From Nitrospira sp. (GTDB taxonomy: Bacteria > Nitrospirota > Nitrospiria > Nitrospirales > Nitrospiraceae), in contig JAOUMR010000006.1 of assembly GCA_029881435.1 (NCBI GenBank), positions 1 through 64,000 of the forward strand: 64,000 nucleotides of DNA. Direction: 5' to 3'. Of this stretch, positions 10,136-26,162 are shown piece by piece. The first letter of the stretch is position 1. Every line of letters begins with the position of its first letter. The notes beneath the pieces were generated by a model. The model made no database searches. It had not been told where the DNA came from and saw only the letters and a program-made list of their open reading frames with translations. A program made the position numbers and the translations under genes.

Positions 10136-11029
10136 TCAGTCTCTGCCGCGGCCCGAACGATCCAAACGATCAGGTCGTTCTATTTTGTCAGGGTGCTCTA
10201 TCCGGTCCGGCCTGTCCCCGCGTCCGGACCGATCCGACCGATCTGATCGATCCAGCCGCTCACGGTCTGAGTCATCCCTTCCGCCACGGTCTCCACGATC
10301 ATCGCGGCCGCCCCGATCGCCGCGCCCTGATCCACTATGGTCATCCCGGAAGAGACGATCGCCGCGTTCTCCGCGGCGGACTTGCTCACGAAGGACTTTC
10401 AGACTTGCGCGCCCCTCTTGAAAATCTGATCCACGCCGTTTCACTTCACGACTCAAGTCCAGAAGGTCAGAAGGACGATAGCCTTGTTTGATGCCTTCAC
10501 CGACCAATGCTGTTCCATCCTTCGACGGAATCTTACCTTCTTTCATCACGGCGAGGCTTTTCGCACCGGCCGCCAGGACTTCTTGAGTCGCTTTGTGTTT
10601 GCCGTCGTGTTGTGAGATTCGAGCCAGTTCGCGGACTTCATCCAGGGTGGCTCCTCGTGCGAAGGCCTCTGCCATTGTTTCGATGGCGCGATGGTGATTC
10701 CCCTCCTCGACTCCACGGGAACCAGCTTCTTGTAACACATCATGGGCAGACTCAAGCCGGGAAGTCATTTGTCGAATGACGGGGTCGATCCGTTTTGGGT
10801 CAATCCCTTTGGCTAATCCTTCTTTAACTTTGTTGGCCAGCGATTCGACAGGGAGCCCTCGTTCACCCGCTTTGTTCACGTGTTCGAGTAATGGGCTAAT
10901 ATCGTCAGGAGAATGACCTTGCGCCGTCCGCAGTCGATTGATCTCCGCTCGATCTTGAGCCGAGAGGGATTCGGCCTGGGCTGGGTTGGCACAGAGCGTC
11001 AGTGCCAGACTCAGGACGATATTTCGCAT
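10136..11029 (-). CDS. Secreted helical protein with Arg/Asp-rich low-complexity C-terminal tail
   Basis: Signal peptide MRNIVLSLALTLCANPAQAES (Met within ORF 10136..11047); tail RGDRGGRDDRGDRGGRDDSDRERLDRSDRSDRSGRGDRPDR. Confidence 0.75.
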   Translation of the reverse strand: MRNIVLSLALTLCANPAQAESLSAQDRAEINRLRTAQGHSPDDISPLLEHVNKAGERGLPVESLANKVKEGLAKGIDPKRIDPVIRQMTSRLESAHDVLQEAGSRGVEEGNHHRAIETMAEAFARGATLDEVRELARISQHDGKHKATQEVLAAGAKSLAVMKEGKIPSKDGTALVGEGIKQGYRPSDLLDLSREVKRRGSDFQEGRASLKVLREQVRRGERGDRLFRDDHSGSGRGDRGGRDDRGDRGGRDDSDRERLDRSDRSDRSGRGDRPDRIEHPDKIERPDRLDRSGRGRD

Positions 11030-11051
11030 GACGGTTCCATTACCCATTGCA

Positions 11052-11435
11052 TTACCGTACGACCACTACTCCGTTTGTTTGCCCGAATCCATCGGTGACA
11101 AAATCGTCAGCCTGTGGAGGTGTCACCCATTGATCTTGGTCGATGACGTACATGAAGAAATACTCGCCTTCCTTGAGCGGCACGATCACTGACCATAGGG
11201 TCCCGCCCACACTCGCCATTGGTGTCGCGCTTTGTACCCATCCATTGAAGGATCCGACCAGACAGACGGCCTTGGCCCCCGGTGCGGACACCGTGAACCG
11301 AACACCTTCGGGTGTGAGGCTCGGTGGTTCGGGTATCATGGTCCTGGCACAGCTCCACGTTCCGAGTAACGCGACGAGTAGGCTCAAGAGCGCGATTGAA
11401 TTGAAAAAACCATTGCGCCTCTGTTCTCTGCGCAT
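11052..11435 (-). CDS. Lipoprotein-like protein with glycogen-binding / isoamylase early-set (CBM48/AMPK-beta-like) domain
   Basis: Signal/lipobox-like LLVALLGTWSC; domain VRFTVSAPGAKAVCLVGSFNGWVQSATPM...LWSVIVPLKEGEYFFMYVIDQDQWVTPP. Confidence 0.82.
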   Translation of the reverse strand: MRREQRRNGFFNSIALLSLLVALLGTWSCARTMIPEPPSLTPEGVRFTVSAPGAKAVCLVGSFNGWVQSATPMASVGGTLWSVIVPLKEGEYFFMYVIDQDQWVTPPQADDFVTDGFGQTNGVVVVR

Positions 11436-11488
11436 GGGTGCAAGAGTAATGTAGGTGTCGCATGGTTGCAAGGGACCGGTGAGAGACG

Positions 11489-12172
11489 TTAGATCGCTAC
11501 ATCAAGCACCGCATTGTGTGCACCGAAACCATCGGTAGTTTCTTCAGCTGCCAGCGGATCGGCAATCCATTCTTTTCCGTCGATGACGAACATATATTGG
11601 TATCGGCCGGGATTTAGCGAAATCGTGGCAGTCCACATTCCGCCATCGGACCGTTCCAATGGGGTTCGCGCTGGATTCCATCCGTTGAAGTCTCCCGCGA
11701 CAGAGACCGAGTGTGCCTCCGGCTGCAGTAGGATCAGGCGGACAAACACCTTCGGCTCCTTCTGCTCCGTACGAGTCGCGATCGTGTGTGCCGGGGAAGT
11801 AGGCACCGTTACCTCCACAACTCGTGAAGGCATCACGGCGAACAAGCCCACCACCGACACGATGGCAACACAAGCTGCTGCGATGGCACCGGCAAGGTTC
11901 CACTCCAACGTCCGTGGTGCACGAACAACGGAGGACAGTCGTTCCCACCAGCCAAGCGGGCGCGGCTCTATCTTGGCCCTGAGCTCGCTATAGAATCTGG
12001 CTGACGGGGTAATTCTGGGCAGCTGACCCGCTTCCGCCACCACCATTTCCAAATTGAGCCAAGACCTGCGCAGTGCGGGATCTGCGTCGATCATCTGCAG
12101 AAACGTGACTCGTTCATCCGGAGCAAGATCGTGATCGAGAAAACGTTGAATCAGGAGTTCTTGTTCGTCCAT
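11489..12172 (-). CDS. Anti-sigma-factor-like single-pass membrane protein with C-terminal glycogen-binding (CBM48-like) domain
   Basis: N-terminal helical region MDEQELLIQRFLDHDLAPDERVTFLQMIDADPALRRSWLNLE, TM AAACVAIVSVVGLFAVMP, then VRLILLQPEAHSVSVAGDFNGWNPARTPLERSDGGMWTATISLNPGRYQYMFVIDGKEWIADP. Directly downstream of an ECF sigma gene. Confidence 0.82.
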   Translation of the reverse strand: MDEQELLIQRFLDHDLAPDERVTFLQMIDADPALRRSWLNLEMVVAEAGQLPRITPSARFYSELRAKIEPRPLGWWERLSSVVRAPRTLEWNLAGAIAAACVAIVSVVGLFAVMPSRVVEVTVPTSPAHTIATRTEQKEPKVFVRLILLQPEAHSVSVAGDFNGWNPARTPLERSDGGMWTATISLNPGRYQYMFVIDGKEWIADPLAAEETTDGFGAHNAVLDVAI

Positions 12173-12199
12173 ATGGCCACCGTCCGGACTCGAGATTGC

Positions 12200-12814
12200 C
12201 TATTGGGTGGGGTCCAGTGCCGCCAGTTCCCGACTAAGCTGCAATCGGCCTTTATAGACCCTCATTTTCAACGTGTCACTACTCACACCAAGCACTGCTT
12301 GCATCTCTTCGTAACTGCAACCTTCGACGTGCTTCAGCACAAATGCCTCGCGATAGAGAGGCGGCAGTCGCTGGATCGCCTGTTCCAGCTCTTGCGCCAC
12401 CTGCTGCTGTGAAAGCAGCCGCTCAGGCGTCCGCATTTCGGCGACATGAGTGTCCAACGCCTCATCCACATCCAGATCGGCTGGTCCCTTTCCCGGACGC
12501 TTGGCTCGCAGCCAGTCCTTACACTTATTGACCCCGATCCGGTAGAGCCACGTCGAAAACTTGGAATCCGAGCGAAATGTCGACAGGGCCTTGAATGCCG
12601 TGAGAAATGCTTCCTGCGCCAGATCTTCTGCTTCCGCACGATTGCCCACCATCCGATAGGCCAGGCTCACAATCGTAGACGCATGTCGCTCGATCAGTTG
12701 TCCGAACGCCTCATGATCTTGCTTGAGGCTGCGGGCAACTAAATGCGCATCATCGGGTCCTACCTGTTGATCCTGTGGCATGCTCCGATTCCGGTTAGTC
12801 TGGTCTGATGCCAC
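12200..12814 (-). CDS. ECF (RpoE-type) RNA polymerase sigma factor
   Basis: Region 2 AYRMVGNRAEAEDLAQEAFLTAFKALSTFRSDSKFSTWLYRIGVNKCKDWLR; region 4 LPPLYREAFVLKHVEGCSYEEMQAVLGVSSDTLKMRVYKGRLQL. Confidence 0.95.
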   Translation of the reverse strand: MASDQTNRNRSMPQDQQVGPDDAHLVARSLKQDHEAFGQLIERHASTIVSLAYRMVGNRAEAEDLAQEAFLTAFKALSTFRSDSKFSTWLYRIGVNKCKDWLRAKRPGKGPADLDVDEALDTHVAEMRTPERLLSQQQVAQELEQAIQRLPPLYREAFVLKHVEGCSYEEMQAVLGVSSDTLKMRVYKGRLQLSRELAALDPTQ

Positions 12815-14005: not shown

Positions 14006-14650
14006 TTAGTTTCTTCCAGAACGTTCGGGTCTCTCCGGGCGTTCGGGCCGCTCCGGTTTTTCGGGGCGATCCGGGCGTTCTGGTCGGTCAAATCGCTCCA
14101 TCCGTTCTGGTCGGTTCGGCCGATCCATCTGCATCATGCGGGCATTCTCTCGACCTTCCCTGCCATGCTCGCCGGCCACATAGTCGGCCCGATCCAGTCC
14201 GCGGAGCTCGCCGCCCGCGTTCGACCTAGGATTGTCCCGGCGATCCTCTCGCCTGTCCATCCGCCGATCTTCTCTCCGGTCTTCCCGCCTGTCTTCCCTC
14301 CGATCCTCACGACGATCTATCCGGCGATCTTCTCGACGGTCCTCTCTTCTGTCCACCCGTCGGTCGTCGCGCCGATCTTCTTGGCGCACGTCATTGGCTT
14401 GGGCCACAACCCTATAGTCCCTCCCTTGTCTCGCTCCCGGATCTCCGCCCTTCCGACCACTGTTTATGGATCCAGGACCACTATGCAGCGATCCCGGCCC
14501 GCTATTGAGCGAACCATGCCCTCGGTTGTCGACCCGTACGTCCGATCCTTCAGCGGGACCATTCATCTTCCCCACGGCCGGTGAGGCCATAACCGAGAGT
14601 GCCGCTAGAGACCCCACAATAATTTCTTTCCAACTGATCCGGTTCATCAT
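14006..14650 (-). CDS. Secreted protein with R/D/E-rich repeat region (DRREDRRxDRREDRR)
   Basis: SD AAGGAGAAG before the ATG at 14650; signal-like IIVGSLAALSVMASPAVG; repeated REDRR/VDRR units. Confidence 0.75.
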   Translation of the reverse strand: MMNRISWKEIIVGSLAALSVMASPAVGKMNGPAEGSDVRVDNRGHGSLNSGPGSLHSGPGSINSGRKGGDPGARQGRDYRVVAQANDVRQEDRRDDRRVDRREDRREDRRIDRREDRREDRREDRREDRRMDRREDRRDNPRSNAGGELRGLDRADYVAGEHGREGRENARMMQMDRPNRPERMERFDRPERPDRPEKPERPERPERPERSGRN

Positions 14651-14710
14651 TCTTCTCCTTATGTGAATCATAATAGCCACAGTCTAGCTCGCGTACCGAC
14701 TGACGACTAG

Positions 14711-16827: not shown

Positions 16828-18267
16828 TTAGTTATTTCCAGGTCGGACTTGCTGCGATTGCCAGGCAGCCGACCGAATCATGTTGCCCCATTCCGCTTTG
16901 GTCCCTCGAACCCAGCGAATCAGGCCCACTAGTCTCCAGTACGAATTGAGCTGCCGATAGCCAAAGTTTTCAAGGAAGGCGACCAGCAACATTTTCCAGA
17001 ACTCCGATCGCCGTTGGTACAGATGAAACGTCATTTCTTCCATGAGGAAGGCACTCAACGACAGGGTGACGCCGAGTCCGACGACGACGCCCAGACAGGC
17101 CAACCAGACTTGCCATGAGACGATTCCCAGGATCAGCCCGATCACCAGGAACACGTATCCAATAATCTCGAACACGGGCCCAAACCACTCAAAGATGGTC
17201 ATGAAGGGAAAGGCGAGCCAGCCGACCGCCCCGCTCTTGGGATGACAACATAACTGGAAGTGGCTCCCGAGGCTGTCGCATAACCCGCGTTGCCACCGGA
17301 TGCGCTGATTCCTGAGGGTGCGAAAATCCTCCGGCACCTCGGTCCAACAGACCGGATCCGGCACGTAGGTGATGCGATAGGGTTGCCCGCTAAGCCGGTA
17401 ATGGTGATGCAGGCGCACCACCAGTTCCATGTCTTCCCCGATCGTGTTCGTGCGATACCCTCCGACTCTCAAGACGGACTCTTTCCGGAATAACCCAAAG
17501 GCGCCAGCAATAATGAGCATCGCGTTGAGAGGCGACCACCCCTGACGACCGGACAAGAAAGCACGAAGATATTCGACCGTCTGCAGAAGTGCTAAGAAGC
17601 TTGACGGTAGGCCCACTTTTTTTAGCAACCCATTTTCAACCACACAGCCATTGGCCACGCGGATCGTCCCGCCGGTCGCGATGGTGCGGTGATCAAGCAA
17701 GAACGGCTGCACGACTCGATACAAACTATCTTGGGCCAAGATGGAATCGGCATCGATGCAGCAAAAGAGCGGATACACGGAAAGATTGATGCCGGCGTTC
17801 AGGGAATCAGCTTTGCCCCCATTGTCCTTATCAATCACACGCACGTTGGGATGTTTTGAAGAGTGATATATGGCACGCACCGGCTGAGTCGGAAGATCAT
17901 GACTATAGGCCTCGGGAAATGGTTTCAATCCAAACTCTTGCCTCAGCACGTCCATAGTATCGTCTGTAGAACCATCGCTGACCACGATGATCTCGTACTC
18001 AGAATATTGGAGCTGTAACAAAGATTGAATAGAACTCGCGATCGTGGCGGCTTCATTGTATGCTGGCATAATGATGCTAATTTGCGGCTCGTACCCAGTG
18101 AACGCACCAGGCAAGCGATCACCGGTCCGCTCTTCAAAATACTGCCGGAGCGACATCAGTGAGATGACATTGAGCGCCAAATATCCCCCGGTCAACGCCA
18201 CGAGGTACAACAGAAACGACAATTGGACGAGGCTGTAGACAACTTCAAGGGTCATGAGCGATCGCAT
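16828..18267 (-). CDS. Processive family 2 glycosyltransferase (PgaC/BcsA/NodC-like), membrane
   Basis: SIIMPAYNEAATIASSIQSLL, DNGGKADSLNAGI, CIDADSIL, GEDMELVVRL, QRIRWQRG plus C-terminal TM helices. Confidence 0.92.
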   Translation of the reverse strand: MRSLMTLEVVYSLVQLSFLLYLVALTGGYLALNVISLMSLRQYFEERTGDRLPGAFTGYEPQISIIMPAYNEAATIASSIQSLLQLQYSEYEIIVVSDGSTDDTMDVLRQEFGLKPFPEAYSHDLPTQPVRAIYHSSKHPNVRVIDKDNGGKADSLNAGINLSVYPLFCCIDADSILAQDSLYRVVQPFLLDHRTIATGGTIRVANGCVVENGLLKKVGLPSSFLALLQTVEYLRAFLSGRQGWSPLNAMLIIAGAFGLFRKESVLRVGGYRTNTIGEDMELVVRLHHHYRLSGQPYRITYVPDPVCWTEVPEDFRTLRNQRIRWQRGLCDSLGSHFQLCCHPKSGAVGWLAFPFMTIFEWFGPVFEIIGYVFLVIGLILGIVSWQVWLACLGVVVGLGVTLSLSAFLMEEMTFHLYQRRSEFWKMLLVAFLENFGYRQLNSYWRLVGLIRWVRGTKAEWGNMIRSAAWQSQQVRPGNN

Positions 18268-19900
18268 GTGGAATCTGGTTGCAATTCAACTCGTTCCCAC
18301 TATCTGCATGTCACCCTGCATGGTCCTGCCCCTCTGGGCAGCCGGGCTGGTGATGCTGCTGACCGTCTGGCTCCAGCCATCACCATGCGTGGCCCAAGAC
18401 ATCCCTGTTCCAGGGCAGAATCCGCTGGCTGAGACCCAGGAAATCGAATTGATCTATATTGGCACTGGATCCGTCCCTAAGATTATAGTCCGTGGTCGGC
18501 AGCCCACAAATGTATTTCCAGCTTTTTCCTATCGTCCAGCGCACGACCATCATGTGGATTTGTTGTCCCTCTCCGACGGAGGTCAACCGGTTGGTATCTG
18601 CCGGGTAAGACAAGAGAACCTGCTGCCGCAGCTTCAACTTCACTTTGATCAGGTTAGGACATCCCCCTGCGGGTTTGTATGGTCCTTGCAGTCAGCAAAC
18701 AAGAGCTTGGATGTCTTGTCCTTCCAGTCTCTCCGAATACGCGGGACAGCCACGAGCCTTGTGACGATTGAACTGGTTGAAGGTTCTGTTGATCAGCGGA
18801 AGACCCCTACGGTGGTGGGCCGAGTCCTTGGGCCGTTCGACGTCGAGATCCCCCTTGCCCCACTCGCGCGACGAATCGATCTTCGGCGACTCACACAGGT
18901 AATGCTGTCGGTGGAAGCTGATGCGGAGGTGGTGTTGCGGGAGAGCGTCTTGCTGCCTCACAAGTCGACCAGCTATCCATCCCCCGCCGTTGGATTTTGG
19001 TATTGGGATTATCGAGCGGCGATACGCGACCCAGAGGGAATGGTAGCCGTCTGTCGGCAACTGCAGTGCCGACGGCTGTTGCTCCAGCTTCCTGATCTGC
19101 GTGATTCCGATCAGGTCTGGGCGGACTACGCCACGCTGTTTGCCCAGACCAAAGCGGCTGGGATCGACTTGTATGCGCTCGACGGCGCTCCAGACATGAT
19201 CGATCACCCCACCGTCGTGACCGATAAGCTATCCCGGCTGCTGAGGCTGGTGGATGGAGGAATCCCCGGTCTGCAACTGGATATCGAGCCGTACCTGCTA
19301 GACGATTTTCCAGAGGATGAGACCATCTTTGACCGATATCTTCGTACGATCGAGCTGGTACGAGGGGCGCTATCCGGCCACGGACGATTGTCCGTCGTCA
19401 TTCCGTTCTGGTTTGCCTCGGCGATCCATCAGGGACGTTCCATGGCATTCTCCGTCATGGACCGAGCTGATGATGTGTCCGTGATGAGCTATCGAACCGA
19501 TGTCGACGAATTGGTAGCCATTAGCGACGACGTGCTGCGCTACGGCGTGCTTACAGGGGTTCCTGTCTGGCTTGGTATGGAGACGACTCGACTGCTGCCA
19601 GAACGGCATATGCTCCTGAAACGTGAACCCGATCCTGCCCTGGCCGACGGAACACTCGACCCGGTACGCAGGATGTTGACGTTGGGGAGGCCTACCGAAT
19701 CTGAGAAGCATGGGGTCGATCAGATCTGGCTTCGCATCCATCACCATACAACCCTACGCCCCGAACGCATCTCGTTTGCCGATCGCCCCCAGCACGAGGT
19801 CCGTCACGCGATTACTCAGGTCTTGGACCAGGTTCGACTGCCAAGTTTCTCCGGGCTGCTCATTCACGACCTCCCCGGTTATCTGGAGCTTACCCAGTAG
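18254..19900 (+). CDS. Putative secreted TIM-barrel glycosidase-like protein
   Basis: 548-aa ORF; signal-like segment MVLPLWAAGLVMLLTVWLQPSPCVAQ (likely start 18308 or 18320); GFWYWDYRAAI..., GLQLDIEPY resembling a degenerate GH18 signature. Confidence 0.7.
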   Translation: MSDRMWNLVAIQLVPTICMSPCMVLPLWAAGLVMLLTVWLQPSPCVAQDIPVPGQNPLAETQEIELIYIGTGSVPKIIVRGRQPTNVFPAFSYRPAHDHHVDLLSLSDGGQPVGICRVRQENLLPQLQLHFDQVRTSPCGFVWSLQSANKSLDVLSFQSLRIRGTATSLVTIELVEGSVDQRKTPTVVGRVLGPFDVEIPLAPLARRIDLRRLTQVMLSVEADAEVVLRESVLLPHKSTSYPSPAVGFWYWDYRAAIRDPEGMVAVCRQLQCRRLLLQLPDLRDSDQVWADYATLFAQTKAAGIDLYALDGAPDMIDHPTVVTDKLSRLLRLVDGGIPGLQLDIEPYLLDDFPEDETIFDRYLRTIELVRGALSGHGRLSVVIPFWFASAIHQGRSMAFSVMDRADDVSVMSYRTDVDELVAISDDVLRYGVLTGVPVWLGMETTRLLPERHMLLKREPDPALADGTLDPVRRMLTLGRPTESEKHGVDQIWLRIHHHTTLRPERISFADRPQHEVRHAITQVLDQVRLPSFSGLLIHDLPGYLELTQ

Positions 19901-19901
19901 C

Positions 19902-21731
19902 ATGCTGACCCTGTCCATCTCACCACGAACGGTTCCACATGCGAGGGTGGTACTCCTCTTCTTCTGTCTGCTGTTCGAGAACGGCGGAGCGGATTCTACC
20001 CTCGCTCAGACCACGGATGCACAGTCCGCACGGATGCTACGTGAACAGGCTCAACAGTTCGAAGCCACGCAACGGTATCAGGAGGCCATTGCCCTCTACC
20101 GAGAGATGCTGCGGCGTGAACCGGAACAGGACGATGTCCGTGCCGCCCTGGCGCGGCTTCTGTCTTGGCAGGGCTCCTATGCAGAAGCCGTTGATCTGTA
20201 CCGAGACATCATCCAGCGACATCCCGTGGACTTGGATGTGAGGACCGCGCTCGCGCGCGTGCTCTCGTGGCAGAAGCAGATGACAGAGGCGAAGTCACTC
20301 TACGACGCGGTGGTCCGCGAAGAGCCTCGTCATGCTGAGGCTCTCCAAGGACTCGCAGACGTCTTATTTTGGGAAGGACGATCTGAGGAGGCTCTGCCCT
20401 ACTACGAACGAGCCTATGCTGTTTCACAGGATTCCGCTCTTGCAGCGCGTATGGCGTCGATCCGCAGCGGGTTGGCTGAACAAGCGAACAAGTCTTCGGC
20501 TGCGGGCCAGTCGGCCGTCGCTGAACGAAAGGCTGGGGTGATCGCACGGGCGCGGGCATGGGAACACCAGGCCGAGTACGCTCAAGCCATTGCGGCCTAC
20601 CAGCAGGCACTCGCGGAACATCCGGAGGACGACGAGTTGCGCAGTCATCTCGCGCGTACCCTGGCGAAAGCTGGACAATTCGAACAAGCCGTTGCACTCT
20701 ACCGAGAGATCCTGACGCGTCATCCCACCGACGTCGACATCCAAGTTGAATTCGCTCGGGTGCTCTCCTGGCAGAAACAATTTGATGTCGCAATCCCTCT
20801 GTATCAGCAGGTGCTCAAGCAGGACCGTGAGAATCGAGACGCCTTGCGAGGATTGGCCGATACCCTGTTCTGGAGCGGAGCCACCCAGGACGCCCTGGCT
20901 CAGTATTCTCATTTATATCGATTAACCGGCGATCCCGATATTGCAGCGCGCGTACAGGCGCTGACAGCTTTGCTTGAAACCTCCCCTCGGGCACCGCTTG
21001 GCCTGCGGGATTCGATCGTCCGTTTGCCCTATCGCGACTATCTCAAGGTTGGTTACGGGCAGTCTTCCTACACGCGCGGGATTCCAGACGAACGGAATGG
21101 GGTCATCGAGTTTTCGAAATCACTTGGCGCGCAAACGCTGATCGGGAGGGTTGAACCGCTCCACCGATTCGGCTTCCAGGATACTCCCGTATCAGCCGAG
21201 CTCTACAGCCCGCTGTGGCGGCGCGCGTGGGGATACGTCGCTGCACAGGGGACAATCAACCCACACTTCTCACCAAATTACTCGGTTGTTGGGGACGTCT
21301 CGCAGGGTTTGGGACTCGTCCATCCACTACTCTCGGCGATTGAAGTCTCCATTGGCTATCGACGTCTTTCGTATAAGACGGATGACATCAATCTCCTCAT
21401 GCCTGGCCTGACCGTCTTTCTCCCGTTCAATATGTGGCTGACCGAAAAGCTCTATTATGTCCCGGAAACCGGCGCGATCACCCTTGCCTCCAGGCTCACA
21501 TGGCGCCCCACCGCTCGTCTGCAGCTCTTCGCCTCGGGGTCATTCGGTACGTCGGGCGAACGGATTTTGGCCACACAGGACGTGACACGGATAAGCAGCC
21601 GGACAATCCAAGGAGGCGTGATCCTCCCCGTCACCGGACATATTTCTCTTGAAGCGACGGGATACTACGAAGACCGGGGTGACCTCTATGTGAGACGAGG
21701 AGGCAGTTTCACTATCATTTATCACTGGTAA
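19902..21731 (+). CDS. TPR-repeat protein with C-terminal YaiO-type outer-membrane beta-barrel
   Basis: Repeated TPR units (YQEAIALYREMLRREPEQDDVRAALARLLSWQG...); barrel-like C-terminus ending DLYVRRGGSFTIIYHW. ATG at 19902 is in frame. Confidence 0.85.
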   Translation: MLTLSISPRTVPHARVVLLFFCLLFENGGADSTLAQTTDAQSARMLREQAQQFEATQRYQEAIALYREMLRREPEQDDVRAALARLLSWQGSYAEAVDLYRDIIQRHPVDLDVRTALARVLSWQKQMTEAKSLYDAVVREEPRHAEALQGLADVLFWEGRSEEALPYYERAYAVSQDSALAARMASIRSGLAEQANKSSAAGQSAVAERKAGVIARARAWEHQAEYAQAIAAYQQALAEHPEDDELRSHLARTLAKAGQFEQAVALYREILTRHPTDVDIQVEFARVLSWQKQFDVAIPLYQQVLKQDRENRDALRGLADTLFWSGATQDALAQYSHLYRLTGDPDIAARVQALTALLETSPRAPLGLRDSIVRLPYRDYLKVGYGQSSYTRGIPDERNGVIEFSKSLGAQTLIGRVEPLHRFGFQDTPVSAELYSPLWRRAWGYVAAQGTINPHFSPNYSVVGDVSQGLGLVHPLLSAIEVSIGYRRLSYKTDDINLLMPGLTVFLPFNMWLTEKLYYVPETGAITLASRLTWRPTARLQLFASGSFGTSGERILATQDVTRISSRTIQGGVILPVTGHISLEATGYYEDRGDLYVRRGGSFTIIYHW

Positions 21732-21760
21732 AATGGCCCGACGTTAGGACGGATGGTCCC

Positions 21761-22852
21761 GTGCTCGCTCTCAGCCACACAGACCTCACACTTGAAATCT
21801 GGCAGTTTGCCGCCCTGTCCATCGGTGGCGTTGTCCTGCTTCTCGTGGTCTCGATTCTCATTTTTCAAGCGCAACGACGGGCGAAGGCATGGAGACGACA
21901 GCGCGTCACGCGCGTGTGGCAACCTCTCTTGGAACAATGTCGGCGCGATCCATTGGAAACACTGCCATCCCTCACGCGTCGAGAACATATTGTCTTCCTC
22001 TACCTCTGGAATGACCAGTATGAGTCCTCACCTGACGCAGCGAGTGCTCACCTGATTCGCATGGCCTGGCAGGTCGGTACCGATCGCCTTGCCAAGGATC
22101 TCCTGGGCGCACGGCTACTGCGCCGCAGACTTCTCGCCGTCGTGACCCTTGGACGGCTACGAGACCGATCGGTCTGGTCACAGGTGAGTGCCCTAGTGAC
22201 ACACCAGAATTCGTTCTTGGCATTCAATGCGGCCCAAGCCCTACTCCTGATCGACGCACAAGCCGCCATTCCGCTCATTTCGCCGCTCATCGGCCAGCGA
22301 AAGGATTGGTCTCCCCTCCGAATTGCCTCGATGCTGAGCACCGCAGGGCCTGATCTCGCATCGGAAACGATCGCACAGGCAGCGATTACCGGTGACCCGG
22401 TCATCAGGCCACGATTGATTCGCCACCTCCCCATCACACATAGCCCTCGCGGCCTCTCGATCTTACGCCAATTCATTCGTGAGCAATCGCCGTCGGATGA
22501 CACGCTTGCCGCTTGCTTGTATGTGTTCGGAGAATTTCGAGACCAGATGGATCTTCCTTTCGTCCGTCTCCACATTTCCCATCCTGCCTGGTATGTGCGG
22601 GTTCAAGCAGCCACCGCACTTGGAAAACTGGGGACTCAGAACGATGAGGCCCGATTGATTGCCCTTTTTGAGGATGAACAATGGTGGGTGCGGTATCGAG
22701 CGGGCGAGGCCCTCGCGAGTTTACGTTCCATGACGGAACACAAGCTTGAATTGCTACAAGAAACTCTCACCACCCCGGAGGCACAAGAAATCCTAGCTCC
22801 TATCTTGGCGAAATTCCGCGCCCGCCGTTCACCCACCTCGATGGCAGCATAA
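21761..22852 (+). CDS. Membrane-anchored HEAT-repeat protein
   Basis: N-terminal TM FAALSIGGVVLLLVVSILIFQ; HEAT-like HPAWYVRVQAATALGKLGTQNDEARLIALFEDEQWWVRYRAGEALASL. Confidence 0.82.
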   Translation: MLALSHTDLTLEIWQFAALSIGGVVLLLVVSILIFQAQRRAKAWRRQRVTRVWQPLLEQCRRDPLETLPSLTRREHIVFLYLWNDQYESSPDAASAHLIRMAWQVGTDRLAKDLLGARLLRRRLLAVVTLGRLRDRSVWSQVSALVTHQNSFLAFNAAQALLLIDAQAAIPLISPLIGQRKDWSPLRIASMLSTAGPDLASETIAQAAITGDPVIRPRLIRHLPITHSPRGLSILRQFIREQSPSDDTLAACLYVFGEFRDQMDLPFVRLHISHPAWYVRVQAATALGKLGTQNDEARLIALFEDEQWWVRYRAGEALASLRSMTEHKLELLQETLTTPEAQEILAPILAKFRARRSPTSMAA

Positions 22853-22962: not shown

Positions 22963-23640
22963 TCAGCGGACGTCCTGAAAGAACACGCGAGGCAGAACCG
23001 GCAGGCGATATTCAACATGGAGAATGATCAACAAGACTCGGACAAAGCTACGCCAAATGCCCATCTTCATGAATTTACGAGCGTCGGTCACCACAGGCGG
23101 ATAGAGCAGGAGCGGCTTGGTGACCTTGATGAGTCGTTCGCAAAAGGCAACATCCTCAAGAATCGGTTGATTGGGAAAACCACTCAGATCCTCGAACAAC
23201 GTTCGCCGAACGAACAGGGCCTGGTCACCATAGATGATCCGACTGCAGGTGCAGCGAAAATTATCCAAGAAGGAGATGAATCGAAGCCGCCAGTCGTCTC
23301 CTGAAAATTGGTGCATGAAGCCGCCGGCCTGAACCGTCAGATCGTGCTCCATCCCATTGAGTCGTTGGAGCGCGTCAACCGGCAGGATGGTATCGGCATG
23401 GAGAAAGAGGAGCCATTCACCAGTGGCTGCTTTTGCGCCGGCATTCATCTGCAAGGCTCGTCCCTTCGACGCAGTCAGCACACGGATCTGAGGAAATCTC
23501 CGAGCGATTTCGCATGTCCGATCGGAACTCTTTCCATCGACCAGGATGACCTCAAAGTCGCCGGTTTGGGCGAAGAGGGCTGCGAGCGTGCTCGGCAGTA
23601 CCTTTTCTTCGTTGTACGCGGGTATGACGATGCTGATCAT
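22963..23640 (-). CDS. Family 2 glycosyltransferase, TIGR04283-like
   Basis: MISIVIPAYNEEKVLPSTLAALFAQTGDFEVILVDGKSSDRT...LLFLHADTILP; short GT2 resembling the TIGR04283 'arsenosugar biosynthesis' family. Confidence 0.8.
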   Translation of the reverse strand: MISIVIPAYNEEKVLPSTLAALFAQTGDFEVILVDGKSSDRTCEIARRFPQIRVLTASKGRALQMNAGAKAATGEWLLFLHADTILPVDALQRLNGMEHDLTVQAGGFMHQFSGDDWRLRFISFLDNFRCTCSRIIYGDQALFVRRTLFEDLSGFPNQPILEDVAFCERLIKVTKPLLLYPPVVTDARKFMKMGIWRSFVRVLLIILHVEYRLPVLPRVFFQDVR

Positions 23641-24272
23641 GCCACGCACCAATCGGGCAAGAAGATGCGTACATCGGCTGCCCAGGCATCCGCATCTTCA
23701 TCGATACTGTCGAAAAGATCGCACAAGGTCAACACCATCGCATCCGTCAAGGCTAGATAGCGCTCAGCCTGTCTCCTGAGTGTCTGCGGATCCGTCTCGC
23801 CTCGCTCAACGGCTCGTTCGAGTTGCCGCCGTCCGAAGCCGTGATGCGCTTCTTCCTGTCGCAACAAGATCCGGCGGAGGCGTCCAAACGGTGCAGCCCG
23901 CTTCGCCAATCCTTGCTCTATACGTGTCAGGATGGCTTCACCCAAGCCTTCGAGGACCACTTGCTCGCCAAGGAACGTCTCCATGAGATCTCGGCATGCC
24001 AGCGCATCGTTCAGCATCCTCCGGTATTCTTCTAACGCGGGAAGAAATGGAGAATCACGGAGGTGTTTTGGCGACAGCCACACAATGGCTCCCTGAAAGA
24101 CCCGTGCATGCATGGCTTCCTGCCTGGCCTGGCTGAGAAGGAATCGGCGCGCTCCGGAGTCTTTGGACAAGGCGGCTTGGGCCTTTGCGCAATCATGGGC
24201 CATCCGCTCGCCATGCTCCAGAAAGGTCAAGAGGCGCGCGATCGGGACTTTCTCATCAGGATGGGCCAACAT
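23637..24272 (-). CDS. Ferritin-like (putative di-iron) protein
   Basis: Two helical metal-ligand-like motifs: EAMHARVFQ and EEAHHGFGRRQLE. Start at 24272 overlaps the upstream gene end. Confidence 0.65.
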   Translation of the reverse strand: MLAHPDEKVPIARLLTFLEHGERMAHDCAKAQAALSKDSGARRFLLSQARQEAMHARVFQGAIVWLSPKHLRDSPFLPALEEYRRMLNDALACRDLMETFLGEQVVLEGLGEAILTRIEQGLAKRAAPFGRLRRILLRQEEAHHGFGRRQLERAVERGETDPQTLRRQAERYLALTDAMVLTLCDLFDSIDEDADAWAADVRIFLPDWCVA

Positions 24273-25092
24273 GATTTTGCTCCTTGGGTGAGATTCCATT
24301 GAGGTTCCAGTCATACTCGAGGTACTCGATGCGGTATTCCGATTGCAGGAGGTCCTGAACCAGTTCCGGATCGTTGACGTAACGCGCGATGTAGACCAGA
24401 ACCGACCCCGCAGCTCGTGTGAAATCCTCATCAAACCACTTGAAGATCATCGAGAGCGATGCCACCTTCTTCACACGATCAAACCGATTCCGCGTCGGGT
24501 CGTTGATAAACTCCCTGGCGACACGATTCAGCTGGAGTTCAAGCTGTTCCGGCTCGAACGCCCAAGATTGAAGCCTCGGACAGGACAACGACGCGCATAC
24601 GATGGCGAAGTGGATCCGCGGCTCATGGAATTGCGCAATCAGCACCTTTCGTTCCAGATCGTAGAGATTCAGGATTCCTCCGCCGACATGATAGTCCCGA
24701 TCGATAAAATAGCGATACCGTCCCCAATAACTCATGGGTGAGTACCTATCGAGAATGCCCTTGATGGCAAAGGCGTTGTAGGCATTGATCCAGAAAGCCA
24801 ATCGCTCATTCTTCGTCTTGAGCGCATTGGGGTCTACGCGGTCGAGCTGCGCGAGATAAATCGATAGCCGATCATCAGACTGGATCGCAGGATAATCGAC
24901 GCTGCCATCTGTAACATGGGCCTGTACCACATCATGAAGCACCTTGTGCGAGAACTCTTCTGGCGGAATCGAATTGGGAGGCGTGAAGGATGTCGGAACC
25001 GTGGAACATCCCGCGAGGACAATCGCGAGGCTCACAGTGACGCATTTCATGAAGCCCGTCGTCTTCGTCACCATTGCACCGGGGTTTGCCAT
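24256..25092 (-). CDS. DUF547 domain lipoprotein
   Basis: Lipobox-like VSLAIVLAGCST; FWINAYNAFAIKGILDRYS...IHFAIVCASLSCPRLQSWAF. Confidence 0.85.
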   Translation of the reverse strand: MANPGAMVTKTTGFMKCVTVSLAIVLAGCSTVPTSFTPPNSIPPEEFSHKVLHDVVQAHVTDGSVDYPAIQSDDRLSIYLAQLDRVDPNALKTKNERLAFWINAYNAFAIKGILDRYSPMSYWGRYRYFIDRDYHVGGGILNLYDLERKVLIAQFHEPRIHFAIVCASLSCPRLQSWAFEPEQLELQLNRVAREFINDPTRNRFDRVKKVASLSMIFKWFDEDFTRAAGSVLVYIARYVNDPELVQDLLQSEYRIEYLEYDWNLNGISPKEQNHVGPS

Positions 25093-26162
25093 GCCGCAAT
25101 GGGGTGTCGTAGTACCGACCCGATCACGCGTCCGTCTAGCCTGTTACAGGACGATCGATCGGAACAACGTTGAATTGCTTGTCGATCAAACCGCGCCAGG
25201 ATTTCGCTCAGTGAAGACTCGAGAAGATTCCCGGCCTCAGGGAGTGACAAGCAGGGGGAGACATGACCCGATGCATCGATGGCAATACTATACCGTCCGG
25301 CATCGCACGGGCTGAGCGTTTCGCCGCTGAGCCATGCTACGTTGTCCTTCGCGTATTGCCGCAAATACCCAGGTGGGAGGGCATTCTCTTTCAGCAGCCC
25401 CTCAAATACGGCGCGTGCCTGTTCACGCTCATACATCAACAAGGGTTCCTGCTTTCCGTACAGTCCGACGTCCCAATGATAGGCGCCGACAACCGGTAAG
25501 AAACCCCGCTCTTGAGCAAACCGAACCATCTGGGTGACTTCCTGGCGATTGATTTCACTGACGATACAGGTCAGAAACTTGGGATGACGATAGCCTTCCA
25601 GTAGCTTGAGACCAGCGAGCACGTGATCAAGTTGATCGGCACCTCGGATACGTTCATATGTGAGAGGGTCCAGCGTATCCAGGCTAATCGAAAGTGTGAC
25701 CGCAAGGGCATCGAACGTTTGCACGAGACTCTCGGTCAATCTGGTGCCGTTTGTAATGAGTGTAATGTGAAATCCAATCTGAACCAAATCTTGAAGAATT
25801 GGCACTAAGTCCTTTCGTAGTAATGGCTCTCCACCCTGCATGAAGACGAACCGAACGCCCTCCCTGTAGAGTCCTGTAAAGACTTGCCGAATCTCCTCGC
25901 GGGACATTTCATACCGACCAACGTTCAAGGGAAGGTTGCAGTATCCGCAAGAGGAATTACAGCGAAGGCACGCCTGGAAAATAGCAAGCACCGGTCGTTG
26001 ACAAACCAGATTGGTTAACCCACCCCAGAAGGCTTGGAGGAGACCAGGCTTCTTGCCCTCGAACGTCGAAGGCTGGCTACCGCGATCATGAAGTGTTTGC
26101 TTAGCTCGTCCAATTTGTATCAGCATGCGCTCCGTCGGGATACCCTGCCCAGATCTGTACAA
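25068..26162 (-). CDS. Radical SAM protein with SPASM-like C-terminal region
   Basis: CxxxCxxC motif CNSSCGYC, then FMQGGEPLLRKDL, TLITNGTRLTESL, ISLDTLDPLTYERIRG; C-terminal Cys-containing PCLSLPEAGNLLE...CSDRSSCNRLDG. Confidence 0.9.
   Translation of the reverse strand: MYRSGQGIPTERMLIQIGRAKQTLHDRGSQPSTFEGKKPGLLQAFWGGLTNLVCQRPVLAIFQACLRCNSSCGYCNLPLNVGRYEMSREEIRQVFTGLYREGVRFVFMQGGEPLLRKDLVPILQDLVQIGFHITLITNGTRLTESLVQTFDALAVTLSISLDTLDPLTYERIRGADQLDHVLAGLKLLEGYRHPKFLTCIVSEINRQEVTQMVRFAQERGFLPVVGAYHWDVGLYGKQEPLLMYEREQARAVFEGLLKENALPPGYLRQYAKDNVAWLSGETLSPCDAGRYSIAIDASGHVSPCLSLPEAGNLLESSLSEILARFDRQAIQRCSDRSSCNRLDGRVIGSVLRHPIAAWQTPVQW

Follow-up and report, generated by a model that had tools for sequence, protein, structure and literature searches.

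A candidate exopolysaccharide locus of Nitrospira with a GT2 synthase, a HEAT-repeat partner and a YaiO-type outer-membrane barrel

A four-gene locus in Nitrospira

In the first 64,000 nucleotides of contig JAOUMR010000006.1 of a Nitrospira genome (the whole stretch analyzed here, hereafter called the window), we identified four adjacent genes for a processive glycosyltransferase family 2 (GT2) polysaccharide synthase, a secreted TIM-barrel protein, a tetratricopeptide-repeat (TPR) protein with a YaiO-type outer-membrane β-barrel and a HEAT-repeat protein with one transmembrane helix. It is rather probable that they constitute an exopolysaccharide system of the synthase-dependent type, apparently of a class not yet described, Pga-like in its working, with the HEAT partner on the cytosolic side, a separate TIM hydrolase and a YaiO-type exporter. 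The GT2 retains the catalytic motifs of a processive enzyme, the genes occur in an all-or-none manner among related genomes, and the HEAT-associated GT2s are monophyletic; from these parts we infer polysaccharide secretion. Nitrospira, which act as the main nitrite oxidisers, and also as comammox bacteria, in soils and sewage works, live there in dense slime-bound clusters. The machinery behind the Nitrospira matrix is poorly defined, and a named candidate operon makes the question testable. The genes are as follows.

16828-18267, minus strand: processive GT2 polysaccharide synthase of 479 aa, with transmembrane helices at the N- and C-terminus (PF00535/PF13641)
18254-19900, plus strand: secreted TIM protein, with a CBM11/CBM22-like β-sandwich followed by a C-terminal (β/α)8 barrel (AlphaFold, Foldseek)
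19902-21731, plus strand: TPR protein of 609 aa with a YaiO-type outer-membrane β-barrel (the program-made open reading frame starts at 19710)
21761-22852, plus strand: HEAT-repeat protein with one N-terminal transmembrane helix (PF13646, 62.8 bits)

The GT2 gene is divergent from the three co-directional genes. The program-made starts of the GT2 and TIM genes overlap head-to-head by 14 bp; the true TIM start probably lies at about 18308-18317, immediately ahead of the signal peptide, and the likely start of the TPR/YaiO gene is 19902. An earlier note, made from the letters of the window, had placed four reading frames here and read them as a processive GT2 with DxD, ED and QRIRW motifs, a TIM-barrel-like secreted protein, a TPR protein with a YaiO-type outer-membrane barrel and an inner-membrane HEAT protein. 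All four are present at these coordinates, and each of the four descriptions held in the analyses below.

Co-occurrence of the genes in Nitrospirota

In a survey of 198 Nitrospirota genomes, in which GT2s were counted at >60% identity, the TIM gene was found in 20 family members and one other genome, and the GT2 and HEAT genes were found in exactly the same 20 family genomes. All three were absent from at least 20 of the other family members listed, and none had one or two alone. The order, with GT2 divergent from TIM and with TPR/YaiO and HEAT following downstream, was near-invariant in the neighborhoods of 19 genomes and in the loci of named metagenome-assembled genomes; the named relatives of the locus were Nitrospira metagenome-assembled genomes throughout. 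The exception to this order was genome G074, in which GT2, TPR/YaiO and HEAT stood together (L094) and TIM lay elsewhere beside a CE4-like gene (L051). In all 14 further Nitrospirota loci (those outside the family, plus G074) HEAT was part of the GT2 locus, either adjacent to GT2 or, in L094, one gene off. Thus, the refuting lack of co-occurrence for which the earlier note had proposed a gene-neighborhood survey did not occur, and with the order kept in about 20 Nitrospira genomes the cluster is not accidental.

Five of the 14 loci resembled operons of the order HEAT, GT2, TPR, CE4, TPR. The CE4 proteins of these five operons all kept the TFDDG and HxxxxH motifs, and the three that were Pfam-scanned matched PF01522 at 62-88 bits, well above the cut-off. 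In addition, a fifth gene for a secreted protein of 630-656 aa was found between TPR/YaiO and HEAT in the g2 and some of the g1 Nitrospira genomes. Its T-H-D-V-D, S-H-T-x-x-H and I-H-P-N motifs were invariant in 11 members, and all 11 matched PF01522 (best E value of 2.4e-5). The single member for which a full score was obtained, however, stayed at 20.1 bits, below the cut-off of 23.1, and an hhalign comparison of the Nitrospira protein with canonical CE4s gave no deacetylase match. The protein resembles a CE4 deacetylase of divergent sequence. The window genome (206 contigs totalling 3.72 Mb, completeness 99.85%) lacks the gene, and no PF01522 match was found in it genome-wide, compared to matches in 11 of 14 control genomes; the CE4 deacetylase (PgaB/IcaB) expected of a poly-N-acetylglucosamine (PNAG) system is therefore missing from this genome. 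In two Nitrospira the gene appears broken, with pieces only at L035:3014-4453 and L036:1260-4492, and it is missing in others, an apparent repeated loss of the deacetylase in Nitrospira.

The GT2 synthase and its HEAT association across phyla

The GT2 matched PF00535 with an E value of 2e-24, as well as PF13641. Its residues D98, D172-A-D174, E278-D279 and Q321-R-x-R324-W325 were invariant in an alignment with 17 relatives, so that the complete motif set of processive GT2s (D, DxD, ED and QxxRW) is present. In an IQ-TREE phylogeny of 23 GT2s, which was rooted at the midpoint only and included long branches (PgaC and YaiP), all HEAT-associated GT2s formed one clade (support 100/100). Single-chain GH18-CE4-GT2 fusions formed a clade of their own (100/99) that adjoined the HEAT-associated clade (86/85), and PgaC and YaiP, on their long branches, fell outside both. 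We define the HEAT-GT2 class as the GT2s that belong to the HEAT-associated clade and have a HEAT gene at their locus, and the window GT2 is one of them. No HEAT gene was found beside any of four fused GT2 relatives.

The survey of other phyla rests on plasmid records, whose GT2s were 30-46% identical to that of the window. HEAT adjoined GT2 in 10 of 11 plasmid lineages of the HEAT clade (Pseudomonadota, Deinococcota, Bacillota, Bacteroidota and haloarchaea), and also in Devosia. The gene contents were as follows.

Mesorhizobium: two response regulators, YaiO, HEAT, GT2, Hpt
Erythrobacter: HEAT beside GT2, the locus lying within a flagellar cluster
Devosia: TIM, TPR/barrel, HEAT and GT2 all present
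Legionella: YaiO, HEAT, GT2, with a nucleotide-sugar dehydrogenase and epimerases
Deinococcus: TPR, HEAT, GT2
Planococcus and Paenibacillus: TIM, HEAT, GT2
Bacteroides: HEAT, GT2, TPR/YaiO
Three haloarchaea: HEAT, GT2

In Emticicia, GT2 and YaiO were found with no HEAT recognized at the locus. The haloarchaeal locus of Halosolutus lies beside GlmS and a sugar nucleotidyltransferase, and the alphaproteobacterial and archaeal versions have response regulators, Hpt and PAS kinases at their flanks. YaiO barrels were found in Gram-negative versions of the module, with none seen in the archaeal or Bacillota versions. On a Planococcus maritimus plasmid (L063), one run of genes encodes TIM, a polyphosphate polymerase domain protein, DUF4956, a CotH kinase, a 689-aa protein, HEAT and GT2, which by gene content we interpret as a Gram-positive version of the module with extra genes.

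As judged from these gene contents, the conserved core is HEAT plus GT2, to which TIM and YaiO are variable add-ons. The earlier reading of the module was thus right in outline, but it had overlooked this core, the CE4-like fifth gene of many relatives and the GH18/CE4-fused GT2s that are the nearest ones without HEAT. The evidence leaves us evenly divided on the broader proposal of an undescribed class of polysaccharide machinery, in which a GT2 with an obligate membrane-anchored HEAT partner is found in both bacteria and archaea, and in which exporters (YaiO/TPR), deacetylases and hydrolases (a new TIM family) come and go between lineages. That the GT2-HEAT pair is conserved in organisms as distant as haloarchaea and Bacteroides points to a synthase complex and provides a sequence signature for finding more.

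The HEAT, TIM and TPR/YaiO proteins

In the HEAT protein of the window, the transmembrane helix comprises residues 16-34 and is followed by six lysine or arginine residues. All 18 aligned Nitrospira HEAT proteins had at most one such residue in the 15 positions before the helix and at least six after it; the pattern is less clear in some HEAT proteins outside Nitrospira. By the positive-inside rule, this charge pattern predicts that the HEAT domain is cytosolic and faces the catalytic domain of the GT2. The protein may be a scaffold or regulator of the GT2, and the response regulators that flank the alphaproteobacterial and haloarchaeal versions are a hint of a regulatory role.

The TIM protein matched no Pfam or NCBIfam family even at E ≤ 1. 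Its AlphaFold model (predicted local distance difference test 84, predicted template-modeling score 0.80) consists of a β-sandwich and a (β/α)8 barrel. In Foldseek searches the sandwich resembled CBM11 (target-based TM-score of about 0.6), and the barrel bore a loose resemblance to class V chitinase and GH84, with TM-scores of 0.25-0.45. In the model, D343-x-E345 ends strand 4 (residues 339-342), E443 ends strand 7 and M411-x-Y413-R414 lies at strand 6; all six named residues (D343, E345, M411, Y413, R414 and E443) were invariant in an alignment of 19 members. The protein thus has the (β/α)8 barrel with an acidic residue at the end of strand 4 that is expected of GH18, but none of the 19 members matched PF00704, and only D-x-E of the DxxDxDxE motif is kept. 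In an hhalign comparison with GH18 (E value of 0.019), D-x-E and MxY aligned with the motifs of that family. The TIM protein is thus plausibly a periplasmic glycoside hydrolase, and its catalytic pair would plausibly be either the D-x-E of strand 4 (GH18-like) or the glutamates of strands 4 and 7 (clan GH-A-like).

The sole solved structure that matched the TIM protein by sequence was PDB 10yv of Cellulomonas fimi (E value of 9.7e-13), deposited as a "putative GH97". The two have an LD-[IV]-EP motif in common, whereas 10yv is a barrel alone (275 aa). A distant TIM homologue was found two genes from a β-N-acetylhexosaminidase in L052, and a search of viral contigs found no TIM relative.

The TPR/YaiO protein belongs to the YaiO family by both models that describe it (TIGR04390, 84.3 bits vs. 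a cut-off of 32; PF19413, 42.6 vs. 23.9). Its AlphaFold model has a TPR superhelix and about 12-14 strands. Foldseek returned mostly TPR matches, including BcsC (9b8a), and the barrel by itself had no match. The protein is likely the exporter.

Proposed mechanism and alternatives

We propose that the GT2, working from the cytosolic face of the inner membrane, would polymerize a UDP-sugar, most likely that of N-acetylglucosamine or of some other hexosamine, and extrude the chain through the membrane. The HEAT protein, held in the membrane by its single helix and with cytosolic repeats, would take the position that PgaD has in Pga and serve the synthase as an obligate partner, be it a scaffold or a regulator. 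In the periplasm the TPR superhelix would guide the chain to the YaiO-type barrel, through which it would exit, while the secreted CBM and TIM-barrel protein would bind and trim it. Deacetylation would be optional and would be carried out in many relatives by the CE4-like protein; given that the window genome has no CE4, a polymer of N-acetyl-hexosamine, if that is the product here, should remain acetylated. An amino-sugar polymer is the most likely product, because PgaC/IcaA is the nearest family of the GT2, CE4 genes occur in the operons, GlmS is a neighbor in Halosolutus, the sister GT2s are fused to GH18 and CE4, and the TIM fold is near those of GH18 and GH84. The nucleotide-sugar dehydrogenase and epimerases of Legionella suggest that substrates may vary. 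In the broader class proposed above, the HEAT protein would represent a new kind of co-subunit or regulator for synthases.

Several points weigh against this proposal. The hexosamine hints are indirect, and the Legionella version is one with a dehydrogenase and epimerases; the CE4 call of the Nitrospira fifth gene is weak, given its subthreshold score and the lack of a match to canonical CE4 profiles; the kinship of TIM with GH18 is only suggestive at the E value obtained and with D-x-E alone of the GH18 motif; and the YaiO barrel appears smaller than those of PgaA and BcsC. We also know of no YaiO protein that is a proven exporter.

Among the alternatives, the product may be a chitin- or chitosan-like (β-1,4-linked N-acetylglucosamine) or mixed hexosamine polymer, with the locus as the operon counterpart of the GH18-CE4-GT2 fusions. 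The sister position of the fusions, a match of the GT2 to the chitin synthase family PF03142 (31.8 bits, cut-off 27) and the likeness of the TIM fold to class V chitinase and GH84 would all fit, but the homology of TIM to GH18 is not significant, the TM-scores of the barrel are low, and the substrate is not readable from sequence; we consider this doubtful. It is unlikely that the locus is a divergent PNAG (Pga/Ica) system in which GT2 is PgaC, TPR/YaiO is PgaA, PgaB is split into a TIM hydrolase and a CE4, and HEAT stands for PgaD. PgaC_IcaA (TIGR03937) is indeed the best NCBIfam model for the GT2, the TPR part of the TPR/YaiO protein matches the PgaA porin model (TIGR03939), CE4 genes occur in relatives, and the parts list fits Pga logic. 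Every Pga equivalog cut-off is, however, missed by far (142.6 vs. 422.3 bits for PgaC/IcaA; 67.4 vs. 366.65 for PgaA, from the TPR part alone), and no gene in the whole window genome reaches that of PgaC/IcaA. In addition, PgaC lies outside the HEAT-GT2 and fusion clades, albeit on a long branch, TIM has no match to the C-terminal Pfam family of PgaB, the window genome is without any CE4, and HEAT-GT2 pairs are also found in archaea and Bacillota.

It seems very improbable that the module adds sugars to a lipid, a protein or a surface appendage, with the YaiO barrel as an anchor instead of an exporter. The position of the Erythrobacter version and the signaling genes beside the alphaproteobacterial and archaeal versions would be consistent with such a role; the GT2, however, has the processive QxxRW signature and transmembrane helices, the TPR and barrel architecture fits PgaA/BcsC logic, and the Nitrospira loci showed no appendage genes. 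That unrelated envelope genes cluster here by chance has in its favor only that TPR, HEAT and GT2 domains are generic and common; this reading is refuted by the all-or-none co-occurrence, the kept order and the recurrence in other phyla, and its probability is practically nil.

Surroundings of the locus and a second copy

Downstream of HEAT, the minus strand of the window encodes at 22963-26162 a TIGR04283 arsenosugar-type glycosyltransferase (above cut-off), an open reading frame without assignment, a DUF547 protein and a radical SAM/SPASM protein; this cluster is kept in L029 and L030 and partly in L040. On the other side, an ECF-type sigma factor is followed at 11489-12814 by an anti-sigma-like protein whose C-terminus is, by eye, similar to a glycogen-binding (CBM48-like) domain, and another CBM48-like domain was recognized by eye at 11052-11471. 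The open reading frames at 10136-11047 and 14006-14680 have long low-complexity charged tails (DRREDRR and RGDRSD).

A second, fragmented copy of the module was found in the window genome on contigs C201, C59 and C88 (L006, L002 and L005) with 69-76% DNA identity. It is flanked by HDOD-like and ABC-F genes, as is the locus in the L033-L036 genomes, and its TIM frame is interrupted by two stops. Only one HEAT copy is present in the closest relative (L029). The second copy may be contamination by another Nitrospira or a genuine second locus.

Comparison with known systems

To our knowledge, the classifications of exopolysaccharide systems (Pga, Bcs, Pel and Alg) include no GT2-HEAT complex. No description of a HEAT-GT2-YaiO system was found in the open-access papers searched, and a 2020 systematic survey of synthase-dependent operons (PMC7112194) makes no mention of HEAT, YaiO or Nitrospira. 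The earlier note had also proposed that the parts parallel Pga/Bcs logic with no standard pga or bcs gene and may be an undescribed polysaccharide secretion system, and had named best matches to a characterized system as grounds for rejection. This proposal is supported, in that all Pga and Bcs equivalog cut-offs are missed, no characterized exopolysaccharide system claims the parts, and the module recurs in other phyla.

Similar to PgaABCD/IcaADBC, the module has a GT2 that belongs to the same broad family (Escherichia coli PgaC is 26% identical to it over 281 aa), a TPR outer-membrane porin and the logic of a periplasmic deacetylase/hydrolase. It differs in that HEAT is in the place of PgaD, the barrel is of YaiO type, the CE4 is separate or absent, the hydrolase is of another TIM family with a CBM-like domain, the core pair is also archaeal, and equivalog thresholds are unmet. 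Plain PNAG membership was rejected, the Pga cut-offs being missed and CE4 lacking in the window genome.

BcsABCZ likewise combines a GT2 with a TPR-barrel protein (BcsC) and a periplasmic hydrolase (BcsZ), but there is no BcsB-type partner at the Nitrospira locus. A cellulose system was rejected, given the scores against the BcsA/CelA (36.7 vs. 699.1 bits) and BcsC (41.6 vs. 858 bits) equivalogs. Elsewhere in the window genome there are two CelA-like synthases (C103:23678-25606 and C161:43647-45581; 561 bits each, below the cut-off of 699).

In the yaiO-yaiX-yaiP-yaiS locus of E. coli, too, the gene for a YaiO-type barrel adjoins those for a GT2 (YaiP) and for a putative deacetylase (YaiS). 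This locus is, however, without HEAT and TIM, its YaiO (257 aa) lacks TPR, and YaiP is 26% identical to the window GT2 over 240 aa and lies outside its clade on a long branch. The closest counterparts by GT2 phylogeny are the GH18-CE4-GT2 single chains of Bacillus mycoides and Prevotella and their Sphingomonas and Sulfitobacter relatives, for which the same three activities (hydrolase, deacetylase and synthase) are proposed. In contrast to the module, these are single polypeptides without a HEAT partner; Pfam recognized CE4 and GT2 in all three of the fusions scanned and GH18 in two of them, but not in the TIM protein of the window.

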